Below, piece after piece: positions 3,732 through 24,801 of a stretch of DNA of 64,000 nucleotides (positions are counted from its first letter, which is position 1; each line of letters starts with the position of its first letter). The notes below the pieces were generated by a model that was given only the letters and a program-made list of their open reading frames with translations, had not been told where the DNA came from and did no database searches. This DNA is from Opitutaceae bacterium (GTDB lineage Bacteria; Verrucomicrobiota; Verrucomicrobiia; Opitutales; Opitutaceae). The position numbers and the translations under genes are program-made. The stretch lies in the NCBI GenBank assembly GCA_028280945.1, contig JANQKV010000055.1:62001-126000 (forward strand), written 5' to 3'.

Positions 3732-3783
3732 CGAGAGGTTGCGACTCGGTGATGGAAGAAATATACGCCAGAAACCGAAAAAC

Positions 3784-3812
3784 TACGTCATAAAAAAATC
3801 TGACGTATTTTT
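3784..3812. promoter_or_regulatory. Dyad TACGTCA-N10-TGACGTA in a divergent promoter region
   Basis: A perfect 7-bp inverted repeat (3784-3790 and 3801-3807) encloses ten A/T-rich bases and is followed by five T. It lies in the 133-nt gap between the divergent sensor/anti-sigma gene (start 3731) and the secreted protein gene (start 3865). It could be an operator for either gene. It could also act as a weak intrinsic terminator in the rightward leader, since the stem is followed by a T run. Confidence 0.4.
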
Positions 3813-3864
3813 CTTCGCCGAGGCGTAAATCGAAATAACCGCCAACCACAACCGGGGACCTGTC

Positions 3865-4638
3865 ATGAACATTCGATCACTCACCTCACTCATCGCGATC
3901 ACCATCGTAACCGTGCTTCCCTCGCTGGCGGAAGAATCAATCCATGGCGAGTCAACCCCGGTGGGCGTAAAGGTGACCATGCGGCCGCAATTCCCGTTCA
4001 GCCTGTCCAACTCCGGTCTGACCGAAGGCCGCGCTTCCTTTCTTGTTGTGGTCGACCAGCAAGGCACTCGGCGCGACCACCTGCTCATCGAATGCTCGCA
4101 CCTCGAGTTTGCCAAGGAAGTGGAAGCGGTGTTGCCGGAATGGGAGTTCACCGCCGCGATAATCGAAGGTCAGCGGGTCAATGCCGTCACCCGGATTGAC
4201 GTCAACTTCCGCCAGACCGGCACCCTGATCTCCTTGTCCGGTGGGCAAACCCTGACCGGCATGTTCATCGACCAACTCGTAACCAATGCTGCCAACAATG
4301 CGTATCGCGTCTCTGACCTGAGCGAATTGGACCGGCTGCCGGAACCGATTCAGATCGTGGAACCATCCGTTCCCAGCTCTCCCGACATGAATCCGGCGGG
4401 CCTGCGAGTCGTGTATCACTTCTTCATCGACCAGACCGGACGGGTGCGCATCCCCCACCTGCGGGAGCGTGAGGTCATGCACATTGGAGAGCCCGTGTTG
4501 GACGCGCTCTACGATGCCTTGATGCAATGGGAGTTCACTCCCCCGACCATTGACGGGGTTCCGGTGGTAAGCCGGGCATCTCAACCGTTTTGGATTCGGC
4601 CCGCCGGCCAGGAAGAATTAGCCGAACACCAGGACTAG
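3865..4638 (+). CDS. Secreted protein with two TonB-C-like domains
   Basis: The 257-residue product has a signal peptide (about 1-22, cleaving near SLAEES). Two similar segments follow: about residues 50-115 (VVVDQQGTRRDHLL ... VLPEWEFTAAIIEGQRVNAV) and 185-245 (FFIDQTGRVRIPHLR ... ALMQWEFTPPTIDGVPVVS). Both have the variable-strand/helix/WEFTPxxxxGxPV pattern of the TonB C-terminal domain. There is no N-terminal membrane anchor and no proline-rich linker, so it is not a normal energy-transducing TonB; it is probably a soluble periplasmic protein. It is divergent from the sigma/sensor pair and shares its control region. The function is unknown. Confidence 0.75.
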   Translation: MNIRSLTSLIAITIVTVLPSLAEESIHGESTPVGVKVTMRPQFPFSLSNSGLTEGRASFLVVVDQQGTRRDHLLIECSHLEFAKEVEAVLPEWEFTAAIIEGQRVNAVTRIDVNFRQTGTLISLSGGQTLTGMFIDQLVTNAANNAYRVSDLSELDRLPEPIQIVEPSVPSSPDMNPAGLRVVYHFFIDQTGRVRIPHLREREVMHIGEPVLDALYDALMQWEFTPPTIDGVPVVSRASQPFWIRPAGQEELAEHQD

Positions 4639-4663
4639 ACAAAGGCCGCGCGGAGATATCGGC

Positions 4664-4960
4664 TCAAGCGCCACCGAGGACCGTTTCAAAAGCTGCCGCG
4701 AGCGCGGTGTCTTTCGCCGTGATCTTGCCGCCGGCGCTGTGGGTGTTGAGCCGCACGTCCACGCGGTTGTAGACGTTGGTCCACTCCGGATGATGATCGT
4801 GGGCTTCCGCCTCGAATCCGGCTCGCACCAGGAAACCCATCGCCGCCCGGAAGTCGGTAAACGTGTAAGTCTTGGCCAAGGCGTCACCGTCACGGGTCCA
4901 GCCCGGCAGGCCGGCCAGGGCGGTTTCGATTTCTTGGTCACTCAGAAGGGCGTCAGACAT
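4664..4960 (-). CDS. 4a-hydroxytetrahydrobiopterin dehydratase (pterin carbinolamine dehydratase)
   Basis: The 98-residue protein is full length for the PCD/DCoH family. The active-site signature EAHDHHPEW is at residues 52-60, with His54, His56 and His57, followed by VYNRVDVRLNTHSAGGKIT. The enzyme dehydrates 4a-hydroxytetrahydropterin in pterin recycling. In bacteria it either supports phenylalanine hydroxylase (PhhB) or acts in folate or molybdopterin metabolism. No hydroxylase gene is in this window, so no gene symbol is given. It is convergent with the preceding secreted-protein gene (25-nt gap) and divergent from uppS. Confidence 0.92.
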   Translation of the reverse strand: MSDALLSDQEIETALAGLPGWTRDGDALAKTYTFTDFRAAMGFLVRAGFEAEAHDHHPEWTNVYNRVDVRLNTHSAGGKITAKDTALAAAFETVLGGA

Positions 4961-5082
4961 GGGCTGAGTTTATGTTGCCCTTCCGTGCCGTCAAAACGGG
5001 CCGGCATTTTCAGTAAACCGCGCGACCGGTTGCGGCCTTGTAAAAGTCGTTCGTCCCTTGCTTACTGGCGATCTCCTTTCGC

Positions 5083-5841
5083 ATGGCCGAACCTACTTTC
5101 GCACACGTTCCTCGTCACGTTGCCATCATCATGGATGGCAACGGTCGTTGGGCCAAATCCCGAGGCCTGCCTCGCATCGAAGGACACCGGCGCGGGGTCG
5201 AGACGGTGCGCCGCACCATCGAGGCCGCCAACGATTTTGGCATCGAGTATCTGACGCTCTACGCGTTTTCGGTCGAAAATTGGAAGCGGCCCGAAGAGGA
5301 AGTGGGTGCGCTGATGAACCTCCTGGACCATTTCCTGCGCAAGGAGACCAAGACGCTGATCAAAAATCGGGTGCGTTTGCGGACCATTGGCCGCACCGAA
5401 GATCTCCCGCCCAAGGTTCGTCGCGAACTGGATCGCACCGTCGCCGCCACCGCCGAGTTTACCGAGCATACCCTCGTGCTGGCGCTGAATTACGGGTCGC
5501 GCACGGAGGTGCTGGATGCCGCCCGGGCCTATGCCGCCGGAGTCGCGGAAGGCAGGATTGATCCGGACGATCTCAGCTGGGAATCATTTGCCCGACACCT
5601 TTACACCGCCGACCTCCCCGATCCCGACCTTGTCATCCGCACCTCGGGCGAAACGCGGGTGAGCAATTTCCTGCTGCTACAGGCCGCCTACGCCGAGTTC
5701 GTTTTCCTGCCCATCTACTGGCCGGATTTCGGGCGCGAGGAATTTGCCGAAGCCCTCCACGAGTTCAACCGGCGGGAGCGCCGCTTTGGCCGGACCGGAG
5801 ATCAGCTCGTCGCGGTTGCCTCTGGCTCAGGAACGTCCTGA
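5083..5841 (+). CDS. uppS: Isoprenyl transferase (undecaprenyl diphosphate synthase)
   Basis: The 252-residue protein is a typical cis-prenyltransferase. It has the MDGNGRWAKSRGLPRIEGH motif with catalytic Asp18, then LTLYAFSVENWKRP and the RTSGETRVSNFLLLQAAYAE region that binds IPP. The enzyme condenses farnesyl diphosphate with IPP units to make the C55 carrier for peptidoglycan and O-antigen synthesis in the cytoplasm at the membrane. The usual SGEQRxSNFLxWQ reads SGETRVSNFLLLQ here, a conservative variant. It begins a block with cdsA, dxr, rseP and ispG, a common bacterial gene order. Confidence 0.95.
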   Translation: MAEPTFAHVPRHVAIIMDGNGRWAKSRGLPRIEGHRRGVETVRRTIEAANDFGIEYLTLYAFSVENWKRPEEEVGALMNLLDHFLRKETKTLIKNRVRLRTIGRTEDLPPKVRRELDRTVAATAEFTEHTLVLALNYGSRTEVLDAARAYAAGVAEGRIDPDDLSWESFARHLYTADLPDPDLVIRTSGETRVSNFLLLQAAYAEFVFLPIYWPDFGREEFAEALHEFNRRERRFGRTGDQLVAVASGSGTS

Positions 5842-5863
5842 GTTTATTGGACTTCGACTAACC

Positions 5864-6685
5864 GTGATTTCCCGCATCACCAGCACCGTCCTGCTTTGGG
5901 CTGCCGTGGCCGCCTGCGTGGTCTTCCTGGGTCCGACCGGGGCGATCTGGCTGATCAGCCTGATTGCGGTGCTGACGTTATGGGAGTTCTTCAAGCTCAT
6001 CCGGCGACTGGGGATCGAGCCATTCGACCGGGTCGGCATGGGAGCCGGTGCGGTCATCTGCCTCGGGCCCCTCTACCTGGAGCCTTATGGGATCGGCACC
6101 GGGCCGTTGTTGGCGTTGGCGGCGGTTGTATTCGCGGTGCGCATCCTCGGCGAACGGGCGGCGCCCAAACGACTCGACACCCTGGCATGGACGTTGTTTG
6201 GGGTAGTCTACATCCCGTTCATGATGTCGTTTTTGGTGCGAACCGTGTTGATCGACGACCCCACGGCAAAGACCGGACTGCTCATGGCGGTGTGGATGAT
6301 CGCGGTGGCAAAATTCTGTGATGTGGGGGCGCTACTGACCGGTCTGGCCTGCGGTCGCCACAAGCTGGCTCCCCAGATCAGCCCCAAGAAAACGTGGGAA
6401 GGCGCGGTCGGTGGCACCATCACTTCGATGGCGGTGGGGGCGGCTCTGGCCCACCTTTTTGCCGACCAAATGCCGGCGGCCTTCACCCCCGTGCTGGCTG
6501 CCATCGTGGCGCTGCCGATTGCGACCCTGGGCATCGTGTCCGATCTGGTGGAATCGATCATCAAACGCCATGCCGACGCCAAGGACACCGGGGCATCCAT
6601 CCCGGGAATTGGCGGCGTGTTTGACCTGTCCGACAGTTTGATTCTTACCGCACCGATCGGATTTGTGGTCTTCAGCCTGTTGTGA
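5864..6685 (+). CDS. cdsA: Phosphatidate cytidylyltransferase
   Basis: The polytopic membrane protein of 273 residues (from GTG 5864) makes CDP-diacylglycerol from phosphatidate and CTP. Family signatures are visible: ISPKKTWEGAVGG and, near the C-terminus, KRHADAKDTGASIPGIGGVFDLSDS. The last part differs from the textbook HGGxxDRxD by having IGG and DLSD, a variant seen in several phyla. GTG 5864 was selected because it lies just after the uppS stop and directly precedes the first membrane helix; frames further upstream lie inside uppS. Its TGA overlaps the GTG start of dxr (GTGA), indicating coupled translation. Confidence 0.93.
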   Translation: MISRITSTVLLWAAVAACVVFLGPTGAIWLISLIAVLTLWEFFKLIRRLGIEPFDRVGMGAGAVICLGPLYLEPYGIGTGPLLALAAVVFAVRILGERAAPKRLDTLAWTLFGVVYIPFMMSFLVRTVLIDDPTAKTGLLMAVWMIAVAKFCDVGALLTGLACGRHKLAPQISPKKTWEGAVGGTITSMAVGAALAHLFADQMPAAFTPVLAAIVALPIATLGIVSDLVESIIKRHADAKDTGASIPGIGGVFDLSDSLILTAPIGFVVFSLL

Positions 6686-7866
6686 GCGCGCCGGACTCCA
6701 ACCTACCGCGTCGGGTCGTCTTGCTGGGAGCCACCGGCTCAATCGGCGAAAGCACTTTGCGGGTCATCGAGCGCCATCCCGATCACCTGGAACTCGTCGG
6801 GATCGCAGCCCACTCCAATCACCCCGCGATCATCGAAATCGCCAACCGCCACCCAACGGTGCGACACGTGGCGCTCTTCGATGGCGGTGCGGCCAAGGAG
6901 GCCCGGTCATCCAACGGTCTGCCCAACGGGGTGCACGTAAGCACCGGTATGGCGGGACTCGTGGAACTGGCCATGTTGGCGGAGGCCGACATCGTGCTGT
7001 GCGCCGTGGTGGGCGTGACCGGATTGGAACCCTCCCTCGCCGCCATCCGCGCGGGCAAAGACCTCGCGCTCGCGTCGAAGGAGATCCTTGTCATGGCCGG
7101 GAAGTTCGTCATGGCCGAGGCAGAGGAGCACGGCGTCGCCCTGCGTCCCGTCGACAGTGAACACAATGCCGTGCAGCAGTGCCTGGCGAATCACCCCACC
7201 TCCGACATTGCCCGGGTCGTGTTGACCGCTTCGGGCGGCGCGTTCCGGGATCGCCCGCTGGCAGAGTTGGCCAATGTAACCCCAGCCGAAGCAATGCAGC
7301 ATCCCAACTGGTCAATGGGGCCCAAGATCACGGTCGATTCCGCCACCATGGCCAACAAGGGGCTCGAGCTCATCGAAGCGCGTTGGCTGTTTGACCTGCA
7401 GGCCGACCAATGCGACGCCCTGCTGCATCGGGGCAGCCTGGCTCACTGCATCGTCGAATTTACCGACGGGGCGATGCTGACCCATCTTTGCCCGCCTTCG
7501 ATGACGTTTCCGATCCAGCACGCCCTGCTGGCACCGCTGCGACTGCCACCGGCGGATGATCCGTTGAAACTGACGGAAAGCTTCGCGCTCGATTTTGAAC
7601 CGCTGGATCGAGAACGCTTCCCCCTGCTCGACTTGGCGCGCGACGCCATGCGGACCGGCGGCACGGCCCCGGCGGCTTACAACGCGGCCAACGAAATTGC
7701 CGTGGCCGCGTTTCTGGCGGAGCAGATTTCCTTTCCCCGCATCGCAGCGATCGTGGAACAAACCCTCGCGCGGCTTGACCACTTCGATCCTACTGATCTC
7801 TCTGCGGTGATCACCCAAGATGCCGAAGCGCGCCGCGTCGCGACTGCTTTGCTCGCCGGGAACTAA
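6682..7866 (+). CDS. dxr: 1-deoxy-D-xylulose 5-phosphate reductoisomerase
   Basis: The 394-residue enzyme carries out the committed step of the MEP isoprenoid pathway (DXP to MEP, NADPH-dependent, metal-requiring). The NADPH fingerprint LLGATGSIGESTL is at residues 14-26. The metal/substrate region has ASKEILVMAGKF and RPVDSEHNA. The flexible-loop and substrate motifs TASGGAFRD and MQHPNWSMGPKITVDSATM are intact, as is NKGLELIEARWLF. The start is GTG 6682 inside the cdsA stop. It works with ispG in the same cluster and supplies precursors for UppS. Confidence 0.97.
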   Translation: MSAPDSNLPRRVVLLGATGSIGESTLRVIERHPDHLELVGIAAHSNHPAIIEIANRHPTVRHVALFDGGAAKEARSSNGLPNGVHVSTGMAGLVELAMLAEADIVLCAVVGVTGLEPSLAAIRAGKDLALASKEILVMAGKFVMAEAEEHGVALRPVDSEHNAVQQCLANHPTSDIARVVLTASGGAFRDRPLAELANVTPAEAMQHPNWSMGPKITVDSATMANKGLELIEARWLFDLQADQCDALLHRGSLAHCIVEFTDGAMLTHLCPPSMTFPIQHALLAPLRLPPADDPLKLTESFALDFEPLDRERFPLLDLARDAMRTGGTAPAAYNAANEIAVAAFLAEQISFPRIAAIVEQTLARLDHFDPTDLSAVITQDAEARRVATALLAGN

Positions 7867-7873
7867 ACTGCCC

Positions 7874-9307
7874 ATGCCTGTTGATCTCATCACTTCCCTT
7901 TTCTCCAACGTTTGGACGATCGCCCTGATCGTCTTGTTCTTCGGGGGATCAATCTTTGTGCACGAGCTGGGGCACTTTCTCGCGGCACGCCGGCGAGGCG
8001 TAAAAGTAACGCGGTTTTCGATTGGGTTTGGACCCAAGATCTTCGGATGGACCGGCAAGGACGGTGTAGACTACCGCGTCTCCTGGATTCCATTGGGGGG
8101 TTACGTTGCCCTGCCCCAACTCGCCGACATGGCCGCGATCGAGGGGGAGGAAGACCCTGATGCCGAGCCGCTGCCGCCGGTTTCGTATTCGACGCGAATG
8201 CTGGTTTTCGTCGCGGGAGCGTTTTTCAACATGCTGTTTGCGTTTGCGCTGGCCACCATCATCTGGCTGGTCGGGCAACCGACCACAAGCGATCAGGCCA
8301 CCACACAAATCGGCTATGTGGTCGACGAGCTGGAAACATCCGAGGGGGACGTCGTGCCCAGCCCGGCCAGCCAAGCTGGGCTGCAGGTCGGCGACACCAT
8401 CCACGCCATTGATGGCAGCCGGGTGGATGACTGGCCTGACCTGCTCCAGACATTGGTCACCAGCGCTGGTCGCACGGAAGAAGGCCGCCGCTATAACGTG
8501 TTCACGATCGAGCGAGCCGGTGAGATGCTTGAAGTCACGATCTACCCCCAACTCGCCACCGACGAGCGCATCCGCAAAGTAGGCATCATGGCCGCTTACG
8601 AGCTTATCGTGGGCACGGTCGACCCGGCCGGCATGGGAGCAACGTTGGGGTTGGAAGTAGGCGACCGGATCCTCGCTCTCGACGATACACCCATTCTCAA
8701 CATTCAGACCTACGCCGACCACCTTTACGCCCACCAGGATCGCGAAGTTATGGTCCACGTAAATCGAGCAGGATCGATGATGGAGCTCACCCTGCCGGCC
8801 CAACCCGATGCCGAACAACCGGCTGATCTCGGGCTGCAGCTTACCACTGATTCGAAACTCGTCTACCCCACCCCGATCGAGCAATTCAACAGCCACGTCG
8901 GCATGACGTTTCGAACGCTCGGCAGTCTGATCAATCCACAGTCCGAAATCGGACTTTCCAAACTGAGCGGGCCGGTGGGCATCATCCGCGTGTTTCACTT
9001 GGCGGCCCAAGCCGATATCCGGTTGGTGCTCTGGTTCACCATTCTCGTGAACATCAATCTGGCGATCTTCAACCTGTTGCCGATCCCGGTGCTGGACGGT
9101 GGCCACATGATGTTTGCGACCATCAGCAAGCTCCGGGGCAAGGCTCTGCCGGCAAACTTCATCATGACCACGCAGAGCGTATTCATGATGCTGCTCCTGA
9201 GCATGATCATTTACGTGAGTTTCTTCGACGTGCGTCGCATCGTGCGCGACAATGCCGCGCCGGCCGCCACCGAGGAGACTGCGGAGGAAGCCACCACCGA
9301 AGAGTAA
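7874..9307 (+). CDS. rseP: RIP metalloprotease RseP (site-2 protease)
   Basis: The 477-residue membrane protease has the zinc motif HELGH at residues 30-34 in its first transmembrane helix. Two PDZ-like regions follow in the periplasmic loop (about 145-225 and 235-320). The third-helix motif NLLPIPVLDGGHMMF supplies the second metal-ligand Asp. The family cleaves anti-sigma factors and leftover signal peptides within the membrane. ATG 7874 lies 7 nt after the dxr stop and directly precedes the first helix. The C-terminus is extended by an Ala/Glu-rich tail. The ECF sensor gene at 2958-3731 could be a client, but nothing in the sequence shows this. Confidence 0.95.
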   Translation: MPVDLITSLFSNVWTIALIVLFFGGSIFVHELGHFLAARRRGVKVTRFSIGFGPKIFGWTGKDGVDYRVSWIPLGGYVALPQLADMAAIEGEEDPDAEPLPPVSYSTRMLVFVAGAFFNMLFAFALATIIWLVGQPTTSDQATTQIGYVVDELETSEGDVVPSPASQAGLQVGDTIHAIDGSRVDDWPDLLQTLVTSAGRTEEGRRYNVFTIERAGEMLEVTIYPQLATDERIRKVGIMAAYELIVGTVDPAGMGATLGLEVGDRILALDDTPILNIQTYADHLYAHQDREVMVHVNRAGSMMELTLPAQPDAEQPADLGLQLTTDSKLVYPTPIEQFNSHVGMTFRTLGSLINPQSEIGLSKLSGPVGIIRVFHLAAQADIRLVLWFTILVNINLAIFNLLPIPVLDGGHMMFATISKLRGKALPANFIMTTQSVFMMLLLSMIIYVSFFDVRRIVRDNAAPAATEETAEEATTEE

Positions 9308-9489
9308 CCTCGCGATCTTTCTCTTTCCTCTTTATCATTATCATTCCGTCAGGGGCCGACTCCATTCGCTTCGGGGAGAGAAAGATAAAGAGGAAAGAAG
9401 GTGGACAGGGAGGCGGTGATGCCGCGCCGGCCATGACAGACTGCCGACCTCACTTGATACTTGGGAGCTGATACCTGTTACTTCTCCCG
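9308..9489. repeat. Intergenic spacer with 15-bp inverted repeat and GATAC repeats
   Basis: Between rseP and ispG no gene is visible. TCTTTCCTCTTTATC at 9322-9336 is exactly repeated in inverted orientation at 9384-9398, leaving a 47-nt loop. No T tract follows, so a standard terminator is unlikely. Just before ispG, at about 9450-9480, the text CTTGATACTTGGGAGCTGATACCTGTTACTT contains imperfect repeats of (C/T)TGATAC. Confidence 0.5.
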
Positions 9490-11529
9490 ATGAGCAGCTA
9501 TTGCGCTTCCCGTTTTCGCACGATCCGCCGCATCTCGACCGAGGTGAAAATCGGTTCCGTGGGGGTTGGGGGGGACAATCCCGTGCGGGTGCAATCGATG
9601 ACCACCACCCTCACGCAGGATGTCGACGCCACGGTGAAACAGGCCATCGCGCTGGCCGAGGTGGGTTGCGAGATCGTGCGCGTCACCGCGCCCAACAAGG
9701 CGGCCGCTCAAGCCTTGAAGGAAATCCGCCACCGGTTTGCGGCGGCGGGTTTTGGCGAAATTCCCCTGGTGGCCGATATTCATTTTCTGCCATCCGCCGC
9801 CATGGAGGCGGTTGAGCACGTCGAGAAGGTTCGGGTCAATCCGGGCAACTACGCCGACAAAAAAAAATTCGCGGTCAAGGAATACAGCGACCAGGCCTAC
9901 GCCGAGGAATTGGAGCGCCTTCACGAAGCGTTTTCACCGCTCGTCATCCGAGCCAGGGAGTTGGGGCGCGCCATGCGGGTCGGCACCAACCACGGCTCCC
10001 TGTCGGACCGCATCATGAATCGCTACGGCGACACGCCGCTCGGCATGGTGGAGAGTGCGCTGGAGTTTTTGCGCATCGCCGAAAGCCATGGCTACCACGA
10101 CATTGTGCTTTCGATGAAGGCGTCGAACCCCAAGGTGATGATCGAAGCCTACCGCTTGTTGGTCCAACGCATGGCCGCGGAGGACATGCACTATCCGCTG
10201 CACCTCGGTGTCACCGAGGCCGGCGATGGCGAGGACGGTCGCATCAAGAGTGCGATCGGCATCGGTAGCCTGTTGTTGGACGGGCTGGGTGACACGATCC
10301 GGGTTTCCCTGACGGAAGATCCGGTCTACGAGATTCCTGTCGCCCAGGCGCTGGCCCAACACACGTCGGCCTTGTGGCGCGAGGCCGCGGTTTCAGCGAG
10401 TGACTTCCCGGTCGAACCGCCGGACGCGCTGGACCCGTTTCACTTCTCGCGGCGTCAGATCAACTCTGTGGCCCTCGGCGAAGCGTGTCAGCTGGGACCG
10501 GAACAACCTCCGCGGGTGATCGTGGCCGCTCCCTCCCTCAAGCACGCCGGCCAAACCGGGGTCGCGTTGCAAAATCCGGCCCTGAAGGACAATCCGGCGG
10601 AGGGCATCCTTATTCCGATTCGAAACGTCCAAGAGCTGCGGCGCTGGAGAAACGAAAACACCTCCCCCATGAGATTCACCGTCTTGGACTTGGACGGGAA
10701 AATCACCTGGGACGAAATGCAGACCGGGCTCGAAAACCAGGCTAAACCCGTGGTGCTCACCCGCCACTTCGGCGAAACGGAAGGAGACCTCCTGCGCATC
10801 TGGCTCGATGGGGTGCGCTCCCGATCCCCCCACGTGCTGGCTGTCTCGACCGCACCGAAAGCACTCGAGACACTTGCTCCCGTGCTGACCGAAGCCGCTC
10901 ACGATCGAGTTATCCTGACCGGCACACTTTTGGGCACCGAAGCCGACCATGCCGTTGGCATCTACCGGCGGTTGGCATCGATTTTGGTCAACCAACGCTC
11001 CCGGATCCCGCTTTGGATTCGCAATACTTCGGCAACCGCATTGGGCGGCCAGCCAAGTTTCCTCAATCGATTGATCGACAGCTCAATCCTGACGGGATCC
11101 CTGCTCTGCGACGGCCTCGGTGACCTCGTGAGCATTGAGACCGAACCGGATGCCGTGCGAGCGGCCAAGCTCACCTACAACGTACTGCAAGGTGCCGGCG
11201 CCCGCATTACCAAAACCGAGTTTGTGGCCTGCCCTTCCTGCGGCCGCACCCTCTTTGATCTGCAAACGACCACCCAACGCATCCGCAGCAAGACCGGCCA
11301 CCTGAAGGGCGTGAAGATCGCCATCATGGGCTGCATAGTGAACGGCCCCGGTGAAATGGCTGATGCAGACTTCGGATACGTCGGTGGAGCCCCGGGAAAG
11401 ATCAATCTGTATGTCGGGAAGACCTGCGTGCGTTACAACATCCCACAAAAAGAGGCCGACGAACGATTAATTGATCTTATCCGGGAGCACGGAAAATGGG
11501 TGGATCCGGAGCCCGTTGAGGTTTCCTGA
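9490..11529 (+). CDS. ispG: 4-hydroxy-3-methylbut-2-en-1-yl diphosphate synthase, large three-domain form
   Basis: The 679-residue protein is the long IspG (GcpE) type with an inserted domain between the TIM barrel and the [4Fe-4S] domain, as in Chlamydiae, Bacteroidetes and plants; the two-domain form is about 370 residues. The barrel (about 1-275) includes VRVQSMTTT, LVADIHFLP and RVGTNHGSLSDR. The inserted domain spans about 280-560. The cluster domain carries CPSC at 581-584 and GCIVNGPGEM with Cys615. The enzyme converts MEcPP to HMBPP in the MEP pathway using reduced ferredoxin or flavodoxin. ATG 9490 has no in-frame competitor nearby. Confidence 0.96.
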   Translation: MSSYCASRFRTIRRISTEVKIGSVGVGGDNPVRVQSMTTTLTQDVDATVKQAIALAEVGCEIVRVTAPNKAAAQALKEIRHRFAAAGFGEIPLVADIHFLPSAAMEAVEHVEKVRVNPGNYADKKKFAVKEYSDQAYAEELERLHEAFSPLVIRARELGRAMRVGTNHGSLSDRIMNRYGDTPLGMVESALEFLRIAESHGYHDIVLSMKASNPKVMIEAYRLLVQRMAAEDMHYPLHLGVTEAGDGEDGRIKSAIGIGSLLLDGLGDTIRVSLTEDPVYEIPVAQALAQHTSALWREAAVSASDFPVEPPDALDPFHFSRRQINSVALGEACQLGPEQPPRVIVAAPSLKHAGQTGVALQNPALKDNPAEGILIPIRNVQELRRWRNENTSPMRFTVLDLDGKITWDEMQTGLENQAKPVVLTRHFGETEGDLLRIWLDGVRSRSPHVLAVSTAPKALETLAPVLTEAAHDRVILTGTLLGTEADHAVGIYRRLASILVNQRSRIPLWIRNTSATALGGQPSFLNRLIDSSILTGSLLCDGLGDLVSIETEPDAVRAAKLTYNVLQGAGARITKTEFVACPSCGRTLFDLQTTTQRIRSKTGHLKGVKIAIMGCIVNGPGEMADADFGYVGGAPGKINLYVGKTCVRYNIPQKEADERLIDLIREHGKWVDPEPVEVS

Positions 11530-12042
11530 CACATTTCCGTGACGCCGTCGTAACATCTGTTTCAATACGGTGAACCGCAGACATTTCGGCCCGCCACCTA
11601 GGAGAAAAGCCTGTTTTGTAGTGCCGAGGTCCCTACGCCAATTTGTCCGTTTTTCGACGCCGAAGAATCTGGCAAATTAGCAACCAGAAAATGTAAAAAA
11701 GTTATCCCCCGCCCCTTGTGAATAACTTGTTGGAAAGTTAGCGTTGAAAGCTTAATTTCTCTGCTCGTTTACTGATTCTCCTCCGACTCACCCGACCATA
11801 GGTCTCCGGAACGTTCTTTCTCCCGTCTTTCCAGTTCAACTCGACCATTTTACACCCGGATTCCTGTTACCTCCTGTATGGCAGCGACTTACATATCCGA
11901 TTGCGATCGGATTCCTCGCGCCCGTCATCCCACCCACTTTTTCCGCGTTGGCGGATTGGTTGAGCCCCCTGCCCAAGGCGAGAGACTCTCACGTCCCCGT
12001 TTCCTGCGTTGTGAATAAAACCACGTAGCTGTCCCTCATTTC
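11530..12042. promoter_or_regulatory. 513-nt dnaA upstream region with DnaA boxes, possible oriC or dnaA control region
   Basis: No gene is visible here. The spacer has an A/T-rich stretch around 11640-11770. It carries two exact DnaA boxes of the TTATTCACA type, both on the minus strand, at 11717-11725 and 12010-12018. TTATCCCCC at 11702-11710 is a weaker 7/9 match. The second exact box lies 25 nt upstream of the dnaA start, so autoregulation of dnaA is likely. An origin role is possible because bacterial oriC often adjoins dnaA, but no ordered box array or clear 13-mer unwinding element could be confirmed by eye. Confidence 0.5.
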
Positions 12043-13449
12043 ATGCCCAACCCTCTCGCGACATCCTCCCTCTGGGAAACCGTCAAACAAGACTTCAAAA
12101 GCCTCTTTCCCGAAGATGTGTTCCAACTTTGGTTCGAGCCGCTGGAGTGCCTGGACGTAAGCGAGACAAGCGTGACCTTGGGTGTGCCGAACGATTTCGC
12201 GGCCATCTGGATCCATGACAACTACCTCGACCTCATCGTGCAGCGGCTGCGGCTCACCGCCGGCCAGGAGATGGAGGTTCACCTCAAGAAGTCGCCCAGC
12301 AGCGGCGCAATTTCCGGGGACCGCAAGCGCAGGTCCCGTTCGGTCACCGCTGAGCAGCCGTTTGACTCTCCCCCGGCCAAACGACGCGTGCCCCTCACCC
12401 GTACCGCTGAGCGCCGCCCCACCGCGTCGGGCAGTCTCAATCCCCGCAACACCTTCGAGAATTTTGTTGTCGGCAACAACAACCAGATGGCGCAGGCGGC
12501 CGCCATGGCCGTGGCCCAGGCTCCGGCGCAGGCTTACAATCCCCTCTTCCTCTACGGTAATACCGGTCTGGGCAAAACCCACCTGATGCATGCCATCGGC
12601 CACGCCATTCTCCAGCAGCGGCCCGATGCCCGCGTGGCCTACCTCTCGACGGAGAAATTCACGAACGAGTTCATCCAAGGTCTGCAGGAGAACGCGCTGG
12701 TAAAGTTCCGGCAGCGTTACCGGAGTGTCGACGTATTGCTGCTCGATGACGTGCAGTTCCTGGGCGGCAAGGAGCGCATTCAGGAGGAATTCTTCCACAC
12801 CTTTAACGAGCTCTTCGAATCCGGCCGTCAGATTGTGCTGTCGAGCGATCGGCGGGCGTCGGAAATCGCCAAATTGGAGTCGCGCCTCGTCTCCCGCTTT
12901 GAGTGGGGCCTGCCCGCCGACATCCAATCACCCGATTTCGAGACCCGGGTGGCCATCCTCCGCACCAAGGCCCAAAGCCTGCAATTGGAAGTACCACCGG
13001 ACGTCATCACCTTCGTCGCCCAAAACATTTCCAAGAACATCCGCCGTTTGGAAGGTGCCTTGATCAAGGTTGCCAGCTACGCCTCGCTCACCGGCCGCAC
13101 GCTCGACGTGCCGACGACCGAAATGCTCCTCCAGGATGTCCTGATGGAGCAGGCGCAGAACATCCTCACGATGGAGACGATTCAAAAGCGGGTGGCCGAG
13201 CACTTCCAGATTCGCCTCAGCGACATGACCAGCAAGCGGCGCCCGAACAACATCGCCATCCCCCGCCAGATCGCGATGTATCTCTCCCGCACGCTGACCA
13301 AACATTCCCTGCAGGAAATCGGTGATGCCTTTGGTGGCCGCGACCACGGCACCGTCATCCATGCCTGCAAGGCGGTGGACAACATGATGGAGCAGGACCA
13401 GACCACCCGGAGCAGCATCGATTTCCTGCGCAATCAGCTGAGCCGCTGA
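12043..13449 (+). CDS. dnaA: Chromosomal replication initiator protein DnaA
   Basis: The 468-residue protein has all four DnaA domains. Domain I is at about 1-85 ([11 protein letters not shown] ... [11 protein letters not shown]). A basic, Ser/Arg-rich linker follows at about 90-140. The AAA+ domain has Walker [10 protein letters not shown] from Gly172 and Walker [13 protein letters not shown]. The C-terminal helix-turn-helix has the DnaA-box-binding signature [11 protein letters not shown]. It binds DnaA boxes and opens the origin. It stands alone, without dnaN or recF, between ispG and an unknown gene. Two perfect DnaA boxes upstream suggest self-regulation. Confidence 0.98.
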
Positions 13450-13459
13450 GACCGGGTTT

Positions 13460-13538
13460 ACGATTTACGCATTCAGAATTACAATTTGAGGGTATCGCAT
13501 CCTCTGTCGTCTGTTGTAAATCGTCCCTCGTAAATCGT
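13460..13538. repeat. Short dispersed-type repeat, ACGATTTAC / GTAAATCGT
   Basis: The 103-nt gap after dnaA is built from simple repeated words. ACGATTTAC occurs at 13460-13468; its reverse complement GTAAATCGT is at 13516-13524 and again at 13530-13538, followed by AATTCGTAATTT. The inverted copies can pair. No coding potential is seen. The role is unknown. Confidence 0.55.
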
Positions 13539-13552
13539 AATTCGTAATTTCC

Positions 13553-14092
13553 ATGTCTCTTTCTCCCGAACAAACCCAGACGGTGGCCCAATGGATCAAG
13601 GATGGTGCCACCCTTTCCGACGTGCAAAAGCGCCTGCAAGAGGAGTTCCAAGTCTCCATGACCTACATGGACGTCCGTTTTCTGGTCGACGACCTGGATC
13701 TGACCCTCGTGGACCAGGCGCCCAAGGCCGATGCCAGCGATGTTACCAAGGCTCCGCCGCCTCCTCCCCCGCCGGCCGAGGAAAAGAAAAGCCTGGTGGA
13801 TCGCGCCAAGGAAAAACTGGGCATGGGCGGCGATAACGAGGACGACGCCGGCGACACGCCCGCGTTGGGTGGTGTGACCGTGGACGTCGATGCGGCCGTG
13901 CTCATCCCCGGTGCGATTGCGAGCGGCAGTGTCACCTTCAGCGATGGTGTCACCGGCAAATGGATCGTAGACCACCAAGGTCGCCCGGGCTTCACCGAGA
14001 TCAGCCAGGACGGTTACCGTCCGTCTCCGGAGGACGCTGAAGCCTTCATGCAGGAGCTCAGCGCCGCCCTCCGCGCCAAAGGTATGGCGTGA
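13553..14092 (+). CDS. Conserved-looking hypothetical protein, proline-rich linker
   Basis: I do not recognise a named family. The 179-residue product has an N-terminal helical segment (about 1-50, TVAQWIKDGATLSDVQKRL ... YMDVRFLVDDLDLTL) that looks like a small helix-turn-helix or coiled region. An Ala/Pro-rich linker with a run of seven prolines follows (about 68-74), then an acidic spacer. The C-terminal beta-rich domain (about 100-179) has ALGGVTVDVDAAVLIPGA and KWIVDHQGRPGF. No signal peptide is present, so it is probably cytoplasmic. It follows dnaA by 103 nt and ends before a strong terminator. Confidence 0.7.
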   Translation: MSLSPEQTQTVAQWIKDGATLSDVQKRLQEEFQVSMTYMDVRFLVDDLDLTLVDQAPKADASDVTKAPPPPPPPAEEKKSLVDRAKEKLGMGGDNEDDAGDTPALGGVTVDVDAAVLIPGAIASGSVTFSDGVTGKWIVDHQGRPGFTEISQDGYRPSPEDAEAFMQELSAALRAKGMA

Positions 14093-14147
14093 CCCAGGCT
14101 CACTGCGGTCAACGCTCAATAGCATCGATCCGCCCCGCATTGCCTCA

Positions 14148-14178
14148 CCCCGACCGCCACCTAGGCTGTCGGGGTTTT
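14148..14178 (+). terminator. Rho-independent terminator
   Basis: CCCCGAC (14148-14154) pairs with GTCGGGG (14168-14174) around a 13-nt loop and is followed by TTTT. It closes the transcript of the preceding hypothetical gene. The start codon of the next gene follows only 2 nt after the T run. Confidence 0.85.
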
Positions 14179-14180
14179 AT

Positions 14181-15401
14181 ATGTGGTTCTGTCAAATCAC
14201 GCGGTTACTCTCTCGGGCACTTGTTTCGATCACGCTGTTTTACCTTCCCACGGCATTTACTCACGCCCGCGAAGAGTCAACTTCTGGGGAATTCGAACGC
14301 CACACCATTGCAGACGACGTGGTGTGGTGGTGGGCACTCACCCTTGCTGACGTGACGGGAGACGGCGTGCAGGACGTCGTTTACATTCACAACAACGCCA
14401 ACGGCGGTCACCTCGCCTACCGCACCGGGCAAACCGAGCCCGGCCTTTGGCCTGAGACCATTGTTGCCCAGTCCCCTCCCGGCGGCGGCACCTTCGCTGC
14501 GGGTGACCTTGAGACCGGTGACTTCGATGGCGATGGCGACTTGGACCTTATCGGCGTAAAACACACTGGCGAATGGGACGGTGCCGCCGAAACCGCCGAG
14601 ATCTTTTGGTATGATAATCCGGACTGGAATGCTCACCCCATCGGCGAAACCCACGGAGCGGTGAAGGATCTCAGCGTTGCTGACTTCGACGCGGATGGCC
14701 GCCTCGACCTGGCTATTCTCAATTTCCATCAGGAAAACCTCCGCGTCTATCGGCAACGGATCGATGGCAGCTTCGACCTCTCACTGGACCTGCATGCGCC
14801 CAATCTCCACGAGGGCATGGATGTGGGCGATCTCGATGGCGACGGTGACACGGACATCGCGGCCAATGGGTATGCGTTCTGGAATCCCCTCGTAGGAAAC
14901 GAAACCGAATGGATCTACGAGTCCATCGACGAGAAATGGCACAACCAGGAAGGCGATTGGTCGCGCAATGGCACCAAGCACGCTGTCGCGGACTTCGACG
15001 GCGACGGCGTGATGGAAGTTGTGGTGAGCCACTCTGAACGCGCCGGTTATCCCATCAGTTGGTATCGCTACACCAAGGAAGGCTGGGTCGAAACGATCGT
15101 GCTGCCTGAGGCCACCGCCTGCCACACCCTGCAGGTCGCTGACGCCGACCTCGATGGCGATCTCGATATCTTCGCCGGTCTCAATTTTGGTCGAGCCGTG
15201 AACCTCGGGGTCGAGGAATTCCCCATCTACCTTTTCCGCAACGACGGCGACGCCTCGTCTTTCACCAAGACAATCATCGACCAGGGCGGAATCTACAATG
15301 GCCGCGTCGCCGATCTTGAAGGCGACGGCGACCCCGATCTCTTCCGGCTGCATTCCCACGAAGCCAAAGAACTTCACCTCTACCTCAACCATACTCGCTG
15401 A
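14181..15401 (+). CDS. Secreted FG-GAP/VCBS repeat protein
   Basis: The 406-residue protein has a signal peptide (about 1-30, ending TAFTHA). Behind it is a beta-propeller built from FG-GAP/VCBS blades with calcium-binding loops of the DxDxDGxxD type: DFDGDGDLDL, DFDADGRLDL, DLDGDGDTDI, DFDGDGVMEV, DADLDGDLDI and DLEGDGDPDL. Such proteins are extracellular or periplasmic and often bind ligands or other proteins; no catalytic site is visible. It is the first gene of a three-gene operon with a second VCBS protein (2-nt gap) and a serine hydrolase. ATG 14181 is the only ATG before the signal peptide and sits directly after a terminator. Confidence 0.85.
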   Translation: MWFCQITRLLSRALVSITLFYLPTAFTHAREESTSGEFERHTIADDVVWWWALTLADVTGDGVQDVVYIHNNANGGHLAYRTGQTEPGLWPETIVAQSPPGGGTFAAGDLETGDFDGDGDLDLIGVKHTGEWDGAAETAEIFWYDNPDWNAHPIGETHGAVKDLSVADFDADGRLDLAILNFHQENLRVYRQRIDGSFDLSLDLHAPNLHEGMDVGDLDGDGDTDIAANGYAFWNPLVGNETEWIYESIDEKWHNQEGDWSRNGTKHAVADFDGDGVMEVVVSHSERAGYPISWYRYTKEGWVETIVLPEATACHTLQVADADLDGDLDIFAGLNFGRAVNLGVEEFPIYLFRNDGDASSFTKTIIDQGGIYNGRVADLEGDGDPDLFRLHSHEAKELHLYLNHTR

Positions 15402-18887: not shown

Positions 18888-21346
<2,459 letters not shown>

Positions 21347-21361
21347 GTTGTCGGGTTCACT

Positions 21362-21397
21362 CCCTTCCGATGGTCGGGCCGGGGAGATTCGAACTCC
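21362..21397. repeat. Left attachment repeat (attL), partial tRNA-Pro 3' end
   Basis: These 36 bp are identical to 24137-24172. They contain the last 27 nt of tRNA-Pro (including CCA, on the minus strand) and 9 nt downstream of it. The flanking bases differ immediately on both sides. It is an orphan tRNA end, not a second tRNA gene. Confidence 0.85.
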
Positions 21398-21509
21398 TTC
21401 GGTTCAGATATTATTGCCCTGTCCTTCAACAGGTTGCGATGGGGCGAAGCTTGCAAGCACACAAAGAAGCTCGCTCGCTTGGTCGCCTGCAATTGAGGCA
21501 GGTAGTTTT

Positions 21510-22742
21510 CTATGCATGTTTTTGAGACTCAAATAGGCGAAGCTCTGAACGAGTTCGGCGACGAAGCAGGCTCTCAATAACCTTGGCCGTGGAATCCACA
21601 ACAATGAGGTCATTTTCCTCCTGATCGTAGGGCACGAGCGACGCCTCTGTGGCGACCACAACAAGAAATGAAAACTGTTTCTTCAATGAAGCCTTACGAA
21701 GGGCACCAATCGAGTCTCCAAGGGTTTCGAATGGACGTTGAACCCTAATCAAAACTGGGTCCCCATCCGCCTCACCTTTAAGGAGCGCGTCAATTCCTTT
21801 ATTTCGTTGAACCGGGACTAAAGGCAAACCTGCGAGGATTTTTAGAGCATCTCGATCCGCATTTAAGTATGACTCTTCCCCCATCTTCATGAGGTTAGAC
21901 TCTGTGACTACAGGATTACCGAGGCGCTCTCTTGAAAGCGATACAGCTACACTCGACTGATCGACTCCAGTAAAGTTTCGACCCAAGAGTTTCGCAGCAA
22001 CAAGGGTTGTTCCACTACCACAAAAGGGGTCGAGCACCCAATCCCCTGGGTCGGTCAGGAGTCTTACTATCCTATCAAGCAAAACTAGGGGTTTTTGCGT
22101 TGGGTATCCGACTCTCTCCTTCGCCTTTGGATTGAGAAACGGAATGTCCCAAACATCCGATAAAGGAACCCCTTTCTTGCCACCAGATCCGACAATTACC
22201 CCATTGCTGTCTCGTGCGTAAACTGATTTGCCACGGCTATCGCGAGCTCGAGACTGAAGAATCTGATCCACGTTGGTGGTAGCAGAGTAACCACCATAAA
22301 TCTGGTTATACTTGTAGCTCTCCGTTACGGAGTATGAGAAAAGCGTTTGATGACTTGGTATGGGGGAGCGCTGAGAATTAGACCATCTCTTGTAGCGCCA
22401 AACGATCTCTGATCTGAAGTTTTCAGCTCCAAAAATGTCTTCAAGGATAGACCGAAGAACAAAGTTTGCCGATGAATCACAGTGGACGACGATTGAACCT
22501 GTACTTTTCAAGAGTGGCCGAACCGCCTCGATTCGAGATCCCATAAAATCGGCATATTCACTCAGTCGTGGCCACCTATCCGAGAAGGAATAGTGACGCA
22601 TTCCGTCTCGGGTTTTCGATTGCTGTTCTTTTCCCGAAAAGAATGGAGGATCGAGATAGACAAGGTCGTAACTCTCCTTTGGCAGACAGTCGCAGATTCT
22701 GAGGCAGTCTTCCTCAATTACTTTGTTTTTAAACTCATTCAT
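21510..22742 (-). CDS. Site-specific DNA methyltransferase (beta class, N4-cytosine or N6-adenine)
   Basis: The 410-residue protein has the catalytic motif IV DPPF at residues 31-34. The SAM-binding motif I DPFCGSGT is at 238-245, preceded by YPTQKPLVLLDRIV. The order IV before I defines the beta class of amino-methyltransferases. Residues about 290-410 form an extra C-terminal domain (NKGIDALLKGEADGDPVLI ... FSFLVVVATEASL), probably for target recognition or a nuclease-like fold. It overlaps the endonuclease gene by 4 bp (ATGA) and should protect host DNA at the same target. Codon usage is more A/T-rich than in the neighbours, in line with transfer. Confidence 0.9.
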   Translation of the reverse strand: MNEFKNKVIEEDCLRICDCLPKESYDLVYLDPPFFSGKEQQSKTRDGMRHYSFSDRWPRLSEYADFMGSRIEAVRPLLKSTGSIVVHCDSSANFVLRSILEDIFGAENFRSEIVWRYKRWSNSQRSPIPSHQTLFSYSVTESYKYNQIYGGYSATTNVDQILQSRARDSRGKSVYARDSNGVIVGSGGKKGVPLSDVWDIPFLNPKAKERVGYPTQKPLVLLDRIVRLLTDPGDWVLDPFCGSGTTLVAAKLLGRNFTGVDQSSVAVSLSRERLGNPVVTESNLMKMGEESYLNADRDALKILAGLPLVPVQRNKGIDALLKGEADGDPVLIRVQRPFETLGDSIGALRKASLKKQFSFLVVVATEASLVPYDQEENDLIVVDSTAKVIESLLRRRTRSELRLFESQKHA

Positions 22743-23362
22743 CCTTGCTGACTGCTATCGGCGATATGTTGGAGAATGCCCTTAAGGTCTATCTGCGTGT
22801 GATTGTGTATGTATTCCCATGCGGCTTCCCCGTAATAATAGTGGCCACAGACACCCTGATAAAGAGTCTCTAGTGTCTGTTGGATTTTTACCGCCTGAAC
22901 TCGGTTCGGATAATAAAACATGACTCTGATCGGCGTGTATCCTGCCGCTGCGATAACTTTGATCCGAGTATGCTCCTTCGTTATGTGGTCCCCATCTGTT
23001 GTTGCGTCACGCCACTTAATTTCGTGCGCGAGCTCGTCATCAAGACAATCGATCTCGAAGGTTTTTGGCCGCTGTCCAAGCGTGTTGGGTATTCGAATCG
23101 AATCAGCGTTAGGGTTATGGTGAGCAAAACACATCTTCGCCGCTGATTCTAAGAAGGCACCAGCATGTCGGTAGAGGAATCGACCTTTGTTCTGATAGAT
23201 GTCGATCATCTTCCCTTCTTCCGTGGAAACACCTAGAACTTTGTAGACTAAGAAGTGTGTGAGGTCATCCGACTCCATTTCGGCAACGCGGGCGTTAACC
23301 TTACCTTCAAGTTCTGCTGCGTGTTTCTTCGCCAATGCTTCGATCTCTTCAAGAAGTTCCAT
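22739..23362 (-). CDS. Type II restriction endonuclease, ApaLI-like family
   Basis: The 207-residue protein from ATG 23362 has a helical start (ELLEEIEALAKKHAAELEG). Its conserved core is YQNKGRFLYRHAGAFLE, NTLGQRPKTFEIDC and EIKWRDATTDGDHITKEH. The D-x(n)-E-x-K arrangement (EIDC ... EIKW) fits a PD-(D/E)xK nuclease. I recognise the family as RE_ApaLI-like; if specificity is conserved the site would be GTGCAC, which is inference. It precedes and overlaps the methyltransferase gene, forming a compact type II restriction-modification unit. An open frame extends upstream to 23623, but it runs over the integrase remnant and has no family similarity there. Confidence 0.82.
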   Translation of the reverse strand: MELLEEIEALAKKHAAELEGKVNARVAEMESDDLTHFLVYKVLGVSTEEGKMIDIYQNKGRFLYRHAGAFLESAAKMCFAHHNPNADSIRIPNTLGQRPKTFEIDCLDDELAHEIKWRDATTDGDHITKEHTRIKVIAAAGYTPIRVMFYYPNRVQAVKIQQTLETLYQGVCGHYYYGEAAWEYIHNHTQIDLKGILQHIADSSQQG

Positions 23363-23417
23363 ATCGCGCGTGCATTGATTGAGCCATCCTGCTGGTTTAA
23401 TCGAGCTATATCGGGGG

Positions 23418-23436
23418 CCTGGGGACAAAGTCCCCA
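23418..23436. other. Short perfect hairpin in the endonuclease upstream region
   Basis: CTGGGGAC-AAA-GTCCCCAG is a perfect 8-bp stem with a 3-nt loop, 56 nt upstream of the endonuclease start. A second, shorter stem (ACGAGC/GCTCGT) follows near 23465-23481. No T tract is present. It could be an operator for the restriction unit. Confidence 0.4.
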
Positions 23437-23489
23437 GTTGAGGGCCGAAGCAGTTTGTGGGAGGACGAGCCGGCCGCTCGTGGCCGGGT

Positions 23490-24033
23490 GAGTATCGAGC
23501 GAAGCGGCTCCCCGTCTTCGAGGGACTGCGACGCCACGAATTGAACCAACTTCGATGGATCGATTTCGAGTTAGAGGGGCCTGAACCATGCGTTCGAGTC
23601 GCGGCCAAGCACACAAAGAACAAAAAGCCTGCTCGGATCTTTCTTCGACCTGAAGCAGTTGAGGCAGTTCAATCGCTTAAGTCCGTTTCTGCCTCTCCAT
23701 TCGATCACGCCTTTCGGCAACGCGTTCCCAGTGTCCGCAAGCTCCGCGAGGATCTCGCTGATGCGGGAATAGACTATGAGGACGAGTGCGGTTGGATCGT
23801 GGACCTACATGCCGTCAAGGACGACCTTTGGGACCATGCTGAGCGTAAGTGGAGTGCCCCCAAGAGTCGCGATGGAACTTATGCGGCACAGCGATATTCG
23901 CCTCACCATGAAAATTTACACCGACAGCAGTCATCTTCCACTGGCTGATGAAGTGAATCGTCTACCTTCGTTTTCGGCCTCACAACAGAACACACAAATA
24001 GACACACCAAAAGGGGTCAGATGCAGTGGTTAG
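23490..24033 (+). pseudogene. Tyrosine recombinase (phage-type integrase), truncated and frameshifted
   Basis: The first part reads GLRRHELNQLRWIDFEL, the box I arginine region, and continues to LHA at about 23814. The next frame then gives SRTTFGTML, MELMRHSDIRLTMKIYTD and its nucleophile Tyr. One extra base around 23816-23818 explains the shift; removing one A restores LHAxRTTFGTML with the HxxR pair. The N-terminal core-binding domain is missing: the 5' end runs out in sequence serving as the endonuclease leader. It lies beside the right attachment site, where an integrase is expected. Activity is lost unless programmed frameshifting occurs. Confidence 0.85.
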
Positions 24034-24136
24034 ATGTCGTCCACAGTCGTTTGCATACCAGAAAACGAAAATCGGATCTCTTTAACAATGACGCGTTTAG
24101 ACGCACTCTTTCGCCAACGTTCGCCCTATGCCGCCA

Positions 24137-24172
24137 CCCTTCCGATGGTCGGGCCGGGGAGATTCGAACTCC
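24137..24172. repeat. Right attachment repeat (attR)
   Basis: The identical partner of 21362-21397. It overlaps the 3' end of the intact tRNA-Pro gene, so integration kept the tRNA functional. Confidence 0.85.
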
Positions 24173-24222
24173 CGACCTCTTGCACCCCATGCAAGCGCGC
24201 TACCAGGCTACGCTACGGCCCG
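24146..24222 (-). tRNA. tRNA-Pro (anticodon GGG)
   Basis: The 77-nt minus-strand gene folds into a full cloverleaf. The acceptor CGGGCCG pairs with CGGCCCG, the anticodon stem is CTTGC/GCAAG around loop ATGGGGT, and the T arm is GTCGG-GAGTTCGAATC-type. The discriminator is A and the CCA end is encoded. The anticodon GGG reads CCC/CCU proline codons. Its 3' part is the target of the adjacent island. Confidence 0.96.
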
Positions 24223-24354
24223 ACTCGGAAAGAGTGGGATACCCAGCCGGATGCAGCCCCTTGAAGCAAGCGGAATCTTACACGCCATAAGTCGCCTAGT
24301 TTTGGCCAACAGCTGCATAGTATGAATCTGCCTTCAGGTTTATGGTGTCGACCA

Positions 24355-24801
24355 ATGAAGACGGTCCTCGCCCCTATCGACTTCTCCGCTGCCACCTCCC
24401 TCGTCATCGAGGAAGCTGCGCAGCTCGCCGCCAGCCTCTCCGCTGAAGTGGTGTTGTTCCACTGTGTGCCTCCTCCCACCGTCAAGGGCGACTACGGGCT
24501 TCCCATGGAAGACCTGCAGGAGGTGACCGATGCCGCCAGGGAAGCCGCCGATCTCAAGCTCAAGGAGGCCCTCGCTCTGTTGACCGACAAGGGGATCAAA
24601 GCCACTTATCAACTGACCTCCGGCGGAGCCGCGGCCTCGATCGTGAGTGCGGCCAATGACATCAACGCCGCCTACATCATCATGGGCTCCCACGGCCACA
24701 CCGCCCTTTATGATCTTCTCGTCGGCACCACCCATCACGCCGTGCTCAAAGACTCTCCCTGCCCTGTCGTAATCGTGCCTCCTGCGCCCGACGGCGCCTG
24801 A
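24355..24801 (+). CDS. Universal stress protein family protein
   Basis: The 148-residue protein from ATG 24355 has the UspA fold signatures KTVLAPIDFSAATSLVIEEA at the N-terminus and the nucleotide-binding motif MGSHGHTALYDLLVGTTHHAVLKDSPCPVVIV at about 111-142. The GxHGx(9)G(S/T) pattern, with Gly-rich residues intact, points to an ATP-binding type. Such cytoplasmic proteins accumulate under stress or starvation. It stands alone between tRNA-Pro and a PEP-CTERM gene on the other strand, followed by a strong terminator. An in-frame ATG at 24322 is possible but would add a leader with no similarity. Confidence 0.93.
   Translation: MKTVLAPIDFSAATSLVIEEAAQLAASLSAEVVLFHCVPPPTVKGDYGLPMEDLQEVTDAAREAADLKLKEALALLTDKGIKATYQLTSGGAAASIVSAANDINAAYIIMGSHGHTALYDLLVGTTHHAVLKDSPCPVVIVPPAPDGA

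Follow-up and report, generated by a model that had tools for sequence, protein, structure and literature searches.

A restriction-modification islet with a broken integrase at a tRNA-Pro gene of an Opitutaceae bacterium

Introduction

The cryptic integrated elements of thaumarchaea, as described in parts of PMC6563490, start at 2.6 kb; NitUzo-E2 consists of an integrase, a winged helix-turn-helix (HTH) protein and two hypothetical proteins, and some of the elements carry restriction-modification (R-M) genes. Passages of PMC5704250 describe integrative and mobilizable elements with relaxases of the rolling-circle (initiator) type, mainly streptococcal and some carrying type II R-M systems, and parts of PMC12707154 describe a tRNA-anchored defence hotspot in E. 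coli. Here we analyzed 64,000 nt from an Opitutaceae bacterium (GCA_028280945.1, contig JANQKV010000055.1, positions 62,001–126,000, forward strand; hereafter the window), in which a type II R-M pair of the ApaLI family and the remnant of a tyrosine integrase lie between exact direct repeats at a tRNA-Pro gene. The best reading of this locus is an integrase-made defence islet that is now immobile.

Like the thaumarchaeal elements (PMC6563490), the window islet has an integrase and little else between its repeats, and R-M genes occur in some of those elements too. Unlike them, it is bacterial and combines a broken integrase with a type II R-M pair that is complete, and its relatives reach down to 2.0 kb. 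Features shared with the integrative mobilizable elements are the integrase, a target at a tRNA or gene end, a rolling-circle initiator (in relatives of the window islet) and type II R-M or other cargo; in contrast, no initiator or relaxase was found in the window islet, and the open reading frames (ORFs) scanned in its relatives encode no recognised coupling protein. The original papers on R-M systems with long target duplications are reportedly Nobusato 2000 and Furuta 2010. Such mobile systems, treated in sections of PMC3874152, also have R-M genes between direct repeats, but such systems are recognised by a repeat lacking an integrase or its target, whereas the window site is marked by the 3' end of a tRNA gene together with the remnant of an integrase. 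The ApaLI-family pair of the Psychrobacter plasmid pA40P2 (NZ_MN657091.1) has the same gene order, endonuclease before methyltransferase, and an endonuclease 58% identical to that of the window, but it sits on a 6-kb plasmid with MobC, a relaxase and RepM, whereas the window pair is in a chromosomal islet. No description of such elements from Verrucomicrobiota appeared in the titles and displayed abstracts that text searches of an open-licence library listed, a scope that most subscription papers fall outside. The window islet is mostly an ordinary example of a known islet type; the newer lead is a family of mini-islands targeted to tRNA genes, whose defence cargo is exchangeable.

Results

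Analysis of the window revealed two exact 36-bp direct repeats, with no strand assigned (21362–21397 and 24137–24172; start-to-start distance 2,775 bp), enclosing an insert of 2.74 kb, much as the first-pass annotation of this DNA had claimed (a perfect repeat around about 2.8 kb). The right copy supplies the last 27 nt, and so restores the 3' end, and runs on for 9 nt outside the gene; the result is a complete tRNA-Pro(ggg) gene on the minus strand (24146–24222; ARAGORN; Rfam RF00005, 61.8 bits), the integration target and the only RNA match of the Rfam scan, so that the rebuilding of tRNA-Pro by this copy, also part of that claim, is seen in full; the left copy is the displaced tRNA-Pro 3' end (27 nt) plus 9 nt. 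By our own estimate, a 36-bp exact match in 4.8 kb has a chance expectation of about 1e-15, and in the whole assembly (5.44 Mb, the window being part of contig C19) these two copies are the only exact ones; three further stretches match the tRNA region at 73–85% identity. The islet is flanked by vanZ (20918–21346) on one side and a universal-stress gene, usp (24322–24801), on the other; the tRNA gene lies between the two, with the second repeat copy on its 3' side. The insert has a G+C content of 0.497 versus 0.600 in the 10 kb to the left and 0.622 in the 10 kb to the right. Of the compositional comparisons suggested by the annotation, which had called the insert A/T-richer, that of G+C agrees with it; that of codon composition is weak: third-position G+C is 0.457 in the methyltransferase gene and 0.505 in the endonuclease gene versus 0.623 ± 0.132 in 29 ORFs that were picked mechanically and may include spurious ones. 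As a separate observation, contig C59 of the same assembly holds a partial tRNA-Pro-like copy (142323–142375; L004, L050; 53 nt, 83%) about 0.4 kb from a tRNA-Pro(tgg) gene.

The islet thus has the features of a tRNA island, namely repeats that include the tRNA 3' end, a whole tRNA gene and an integrase, here a remnant, by the attachment site. The remnant comes from the C-terminal part of a tyrosine integrase; it is truncated, carries a frameshift, lies on the plus strand and reads towards the tRNA. Its first piece (23517–23816) holds the catalytic domain from the GLRR motif onward, about 210–250 N-terminal residues being missing, and the second (23815–23970), in another frame, holds the RHSD and Y boxes and was identified by matches to relatives. 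Both pieces score under the Pfam cut-off and show 35–45% and 47–67% identity to relatives, respectively. With its N-terminus lost and its frame broken, the integrase is as moribund as first described, and a complete enzyme with which the element could excise is absent from the islet.

Loci around relatives of this integrase (31 fetched: 11 from 28 matches and 20 from a longer list) revealed how the enzyme behaves elsewhere. In 21 of the 31, the 3' end of a tRNA or transfer-messenger RNA (tmRNA) gene lies within 200 bp of the integrase C-terminus and faces it, the targets being tRNA-Val (4), Ser (4), Pro(ggg) (3), Glu (2) and, once each, Pro(cgg), Pro(tgg), Gly, Met, Ala, Tyr, Cys and tmRNA. 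A further, incomplete copy of a tRNA or tmRNA end is present in 11 of the 31 (L158, L161, L164, L165, L166, L234, L238, L239, L240, L251 and L253); the copies shown match about 23–32 nt of the RNA, several continuing up to 8 nt beyond (28 in L158), compared with 27 plus 9 nt in the window. Among the relatives, too, tRNA 3' ends are thus flagged by a repeat of this kind, which bears out the assumed use of such ends as integration sites. A tree built from 24 sequences places the remnant, at a bootstrap value of 95, with L157, L160 and L162, all at tRNA-Pro(ggg), and with L158, L159 and L163. A still smaller decayed islet was observed in L164 (G022, 6432–7489), where a truncated integrase lies between tRNA-Ser and a tRNA-end copy 0.9 kb away.

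The cargo comprises two complete minus-strand reading frames that share 4 nt, with the endonuclease gene (R) first and the methyltransferase gene (M) second. R (22739–23362, 207 aa) is an ApaLI-family type II restriction endonuclease (PF09499 RE_ApaLI, 293 bits against a cut-off of 25, E 9.8e-88; PADLOC REase_II, E 3e-90), and M (21510–22742, 410 aa) an amino (N6/N4) DNA methyltransferase (PF01555 N6_N4_Mtase, 164 bits, E 4.7e-48; PADLOC MTase_II, E 5e-150), in agreement with the initial reading of an ApaLI-like endonuclease and its methyltransferase. R keeps 69 of 69 near-invariant columns (80 homologues) and M 74 of 74 (75 homologues); because every such residue is retained, the cassette looks functional and the integrase does not. 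The predicted structure of R has a mean pLDDT of 90.9. No solved relative was found by sequence, and none by Foldseek at E ≤ 0.001, the best rows, which include VC1899, BstEII and McrBC, all being non-significant, so the structure gives the nuclease fold no confirmation; in the model, D105 and E114-x-K116, on two strands, look like a PD-(D/E)XK site. Just upstream of R, a GC-rich inverted repeat (23419–23438) is a possible control site.

In M, the DPPF motif lies ahead of FCGSG, an order that we take to denote a class beta methyltransferase. M.ApaLI is a C5 enzyme. GTGCAC is not avoided in the 61 kb of flanking sequence (17 observed versus 14.7 expected; rank 55 of 64 palindromes), an amount of sequence small for deciding the matter. 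Since the partner of R is an N6/N4 amino methyltransferase while M.ApaLI is not, and since GTGCAC is not rare in the flanks, the family name alone does not imply GTGCAC specificity, which would be an unproven candidate.

R was found in none of seven congeners, and an extra 36-nt copy occurred in only one of 29 genomes searched, that of the window itself. The order vanZ, tRNA-Pro, usp is kept in six of the seven congeners; in G006 the tRNA is inverted and the vanZ match split, and in G002 only about 40 bp separate the tRNA from the vanZ match. The annotation had proposed a search for empty junctions in related genomes, and the congeners indeed lack both the R-M genes and the second repeat. The junction between vanZ and tRNA-Pro is variable, other congeners carrying other genes there, all without a second repeat: G001 has a YefM/YoeB-type toxin-antitoxin pair (L041, 899–1404) at the junction that holds the R-M genes in the window, G004 a glucose/sorbosone dehydrogenase-like gene, G005 a similar ORF and G007 another ORF.

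Within the same bacterial family, tRNA-Pro genes were found to carry three repeat-bounded islets of 2.0–2.8 kb. The one at tRNA-Pro(cgg) (L240, G164; 2,032 bp) contains only a single-ORF integrase and one HTH_17 ORF; that at tRNA-Pro(tgg) (L251, G345; 1,989 bp) a single-ORF integrase and one ORF whose HTH_17 score is slightly under the cut-off; and that at tRNA-Pro(ggg) (L239, G219; 2,818 bp) a two-frame integrase and two small ORFs without a Pfam match. The size of the window islet is therefore normal for its surroundings. Its ranking by the first-pass annotation among the smallest integrase/R-M islands stands in that it is small, but its smallness comes partly from loss of the integrase front, and the same integrase type is found in islets of just 2.0 kb. 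In L234 (G164, about 3642–15172), the tRNA-Pro(ggg) end recurs twice, 6,287 and 9,451 bp away, with several integrases, some in pieces; at this single tRNA gene, elements have arrived and decayed more than once.

Ten larger repeat-bounded elements join an integrase of the remnant's kind with a rolling-circle replication protein (Rep; PF23343 or near it), with sizes of 5,511 bp (L158), 7,322 bp (L161), 4,799 bp (L165), 5,041 bp (L166), 5,899 bp (L189), 7,242 bp and, in tandem, 5,233 bp (L186), 8,742 bp (L191), 5,123 bp (L192, its repeat exact over 19 nt only) and 4,015 bp (L238); the Reps of L165 and L166 score under the Pfam cut-off. A search of 273 genomes from the order detected Rep in 9, the window genome not among them, and six of ten Rep-led loci (L187, L188, L190, L193, L194 and L195) do not have the integrase and tRNA-repeat layout. 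The L161 Rep is similar to the replication proteins of 1.3–2.1-kb plasmids (26 plasmid records), some annotated as phasyl Arp; no phage record resembling it was found. The window islet has an integrase of the same family as these elements and no Rep at its distal end, tblastn of three Reps giving only chance-level matches in the islet (best E 0.44).

Cargo that matches defence families was present in six of the ten elements, a raw proportion with no control set. The element at tRNA-Glu (L161/L168, G055) encodes an integrase, an MvaI/BcnI endonuclease, Vsr, a C5 methyltransferase and the phasyl-like Rep, and L191 contains an Eco57I-type R-M pair; L166 carries SIR2, L189 carries KAP and PifA-like genes, and the tandem elements at tRNA-Asn (L186, 3524–16073; G055) carry an AbiL-like ATPase with RloB in the first and TIR in the second. 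The cargo ORFs scanned in L158, L165 and L192 gave no match, the scan excluding the cargo of L238 and some small ORFs elsewhere. PADLOC models are broad, and a match is not proof of defence.

Homologues of R were detected among relatives in 1 of 57 genomes, the window's own, and in the class in 5 of 384; in GTDB, with one genome per species, 98 loci were confirmed and 80 retained, and elsewhere one viral contig, two plasmid records and, as a partial match, three phage records were found. The pair is present in many phyla, in settings other than a tRNA islet. M adjoins R in 85 of 85 related loci, and the two overlap in 64 of the 82 loci left after removal of duplicates (L095, L100 and L156, the same cassettes as L073, L072 and L074 from a second collection), although the choice of start codons favoured upstream starts. 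The first-pass annotation had named relatives with the same genes but no repeat as a case against an islet; such cases are common, but since the R-M pair is mobile in more than one way, we do not regard them as a refutation.

Exact repeats of at least 22 nt within 1 kb either side of R-M occur at 6 of the 82 unique loci versus 1 of 299 control windows from the same stretches, a contrast that shrinks to 11 of 82 versus 10 of 299 when the flanks are widened to 4 kb. The repeats around R-M pairs are 22–94 nt long; those at L095 (beside a run of N) and at L096 and L116 (contig ends) may be assembly effects and were given no weight. No integrase of the set used was found at the repeat-flanked loci, a search that did not extend to other integrase families. 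In L131, L134 and L136 the two copies diverge outside the exact core and are therefore not simple duplications. The repeats in L100 (6655–6744 and 8965–9054), L151, L131, L134 and L136 resemble the 3' ends of host genes, some copies having diverged; by our reading of the translation, that of L100 is the 3' end of an efflux pump gene. ApaLI-family pairs thus also occupy repeat settings without an integrase of the set searched, resembling published long target duplications (PMC3874152).

Discussion

We consider it probable that the tRNA-Pro(ggg) 3' end was the entry site of a tyrosine-integrase element with a type II R-M cassette as its cargo. In such an event, the element's copy of the tRNA end would recombine with the gene, leaving the whole tRNA on one side and the 36-bp copy on the other; integrase recombination would thus account for the repeat, for where it ends and for the intact tRNA gene. 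Later, the integrase would have lost its N-terminal part and gained a frameshift, leaving the islet unable to excise by itself. The R-M operon would cut unmodified incoming DNA and protect that of the host, and its loss would expose unmethylated sites to cutting; retention may therefore have been favoured both by defence against incoming DNA and by this addiction.

Several observations weigh against this history. The integrase is incomplete at the window islet, and no intact copy of the islet was found. Bootstrap values inside the integrase clade, and with them the support for the order within the group, are low (35–48). The integrase type of the remnant, searched with the remnant pieces, occurs in none of the 85 related R-M loci, any match to the integrase set in just one, and a tRNA within the stretch in three, so that a tRNA setting is atypical of the ApaLI-like family. 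The truncation of the integrase, moreover, falls right by the start of the R-M cassette, which fits a later insertion of the R-M genes as well.

Such a later insertion, in which a bare integrase islet at tRNA-Pro came first and the entering R-M cassette destroyed the integrase front, seems to us unlikely, if worth serious consideration. Bare islets of an integrase and one HTH_17 ORF do exist at tRNA-Pro (L240 and L251), the window integrase is cut near the upstream end of R, and ApaLI-family pairs are also found without integrases, some between long repeats. A possible second scrap of integrase, weak and on the plus strand, lies on the far side of the R-M genes at the left end (21454–21503), with a score reached by 4 of 2000 and 2 of 2000 shuffles under two scoring schemes; however, it is exact over just 15 nt (matching 23606–23620). 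Apart from short matches, the islet shows neither a repeat nor any other sign of a second insertion around the R-M genes, and the relatives L161 and L191 carry R-M as inner cargo of such elements.

That R or M is inactive or unselected, and the islet merely a scar, is improbable. Decay of the integrase means that the islet is not maintained by movement, and promoter and terminator scans were at chance level, with no strong promoter-like site (two versus a shuffle mean of 2.1), but both frames are complete with all near-invariant positions kept, and R is modelled with high confidence. Self-insertion of the R-M unit without an integrase, producing a long target duplication beside an integrase scrap already present, is highly improbable, in spite of the excess of close repeats around related pairs and of the variable target duplications of about 100 bp known for R-M systems (sections of PMC3874152), because the window repeat follows the integrase pattern, ending at the same place in the tRNA as the repeats of many integrase elements and adjoining a remnant of the tRNA-Pro clade, whereas the L131, L134 and L136 copies do not match outside their cores and the excess fades in wider flanks.

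More tentatively, and with somewhat less than even confidence, we suggest that the islet is a decayed member of an undescribed group of minimal integrative elements of these bacteria, in which a 2-kb chassis of integrase and HTH_17 protein would sit at the 3' ends of tRNA or tmRNA genes, in some cases joined by a rolling-circle Rep akin to those of the smallest known plasmids, and would exchange defence cassettes (R-M, SIR2, TIR, AbiL-like, KAP/PifA-like). The window would then be an end point at which the vehicle dies and the cassette stays: a snapshot of a defence pair becoming a fixed chromosomal resident, its vehicle's integrase decayed while R and M keep every conserved residue. The locus leads to repeat-bounded mini-islands of 2–9 kb at tRNA and tmRNA genes, and opens to testing the idea that these bacteria obtain their defence genes in large part through very small integrative elements.

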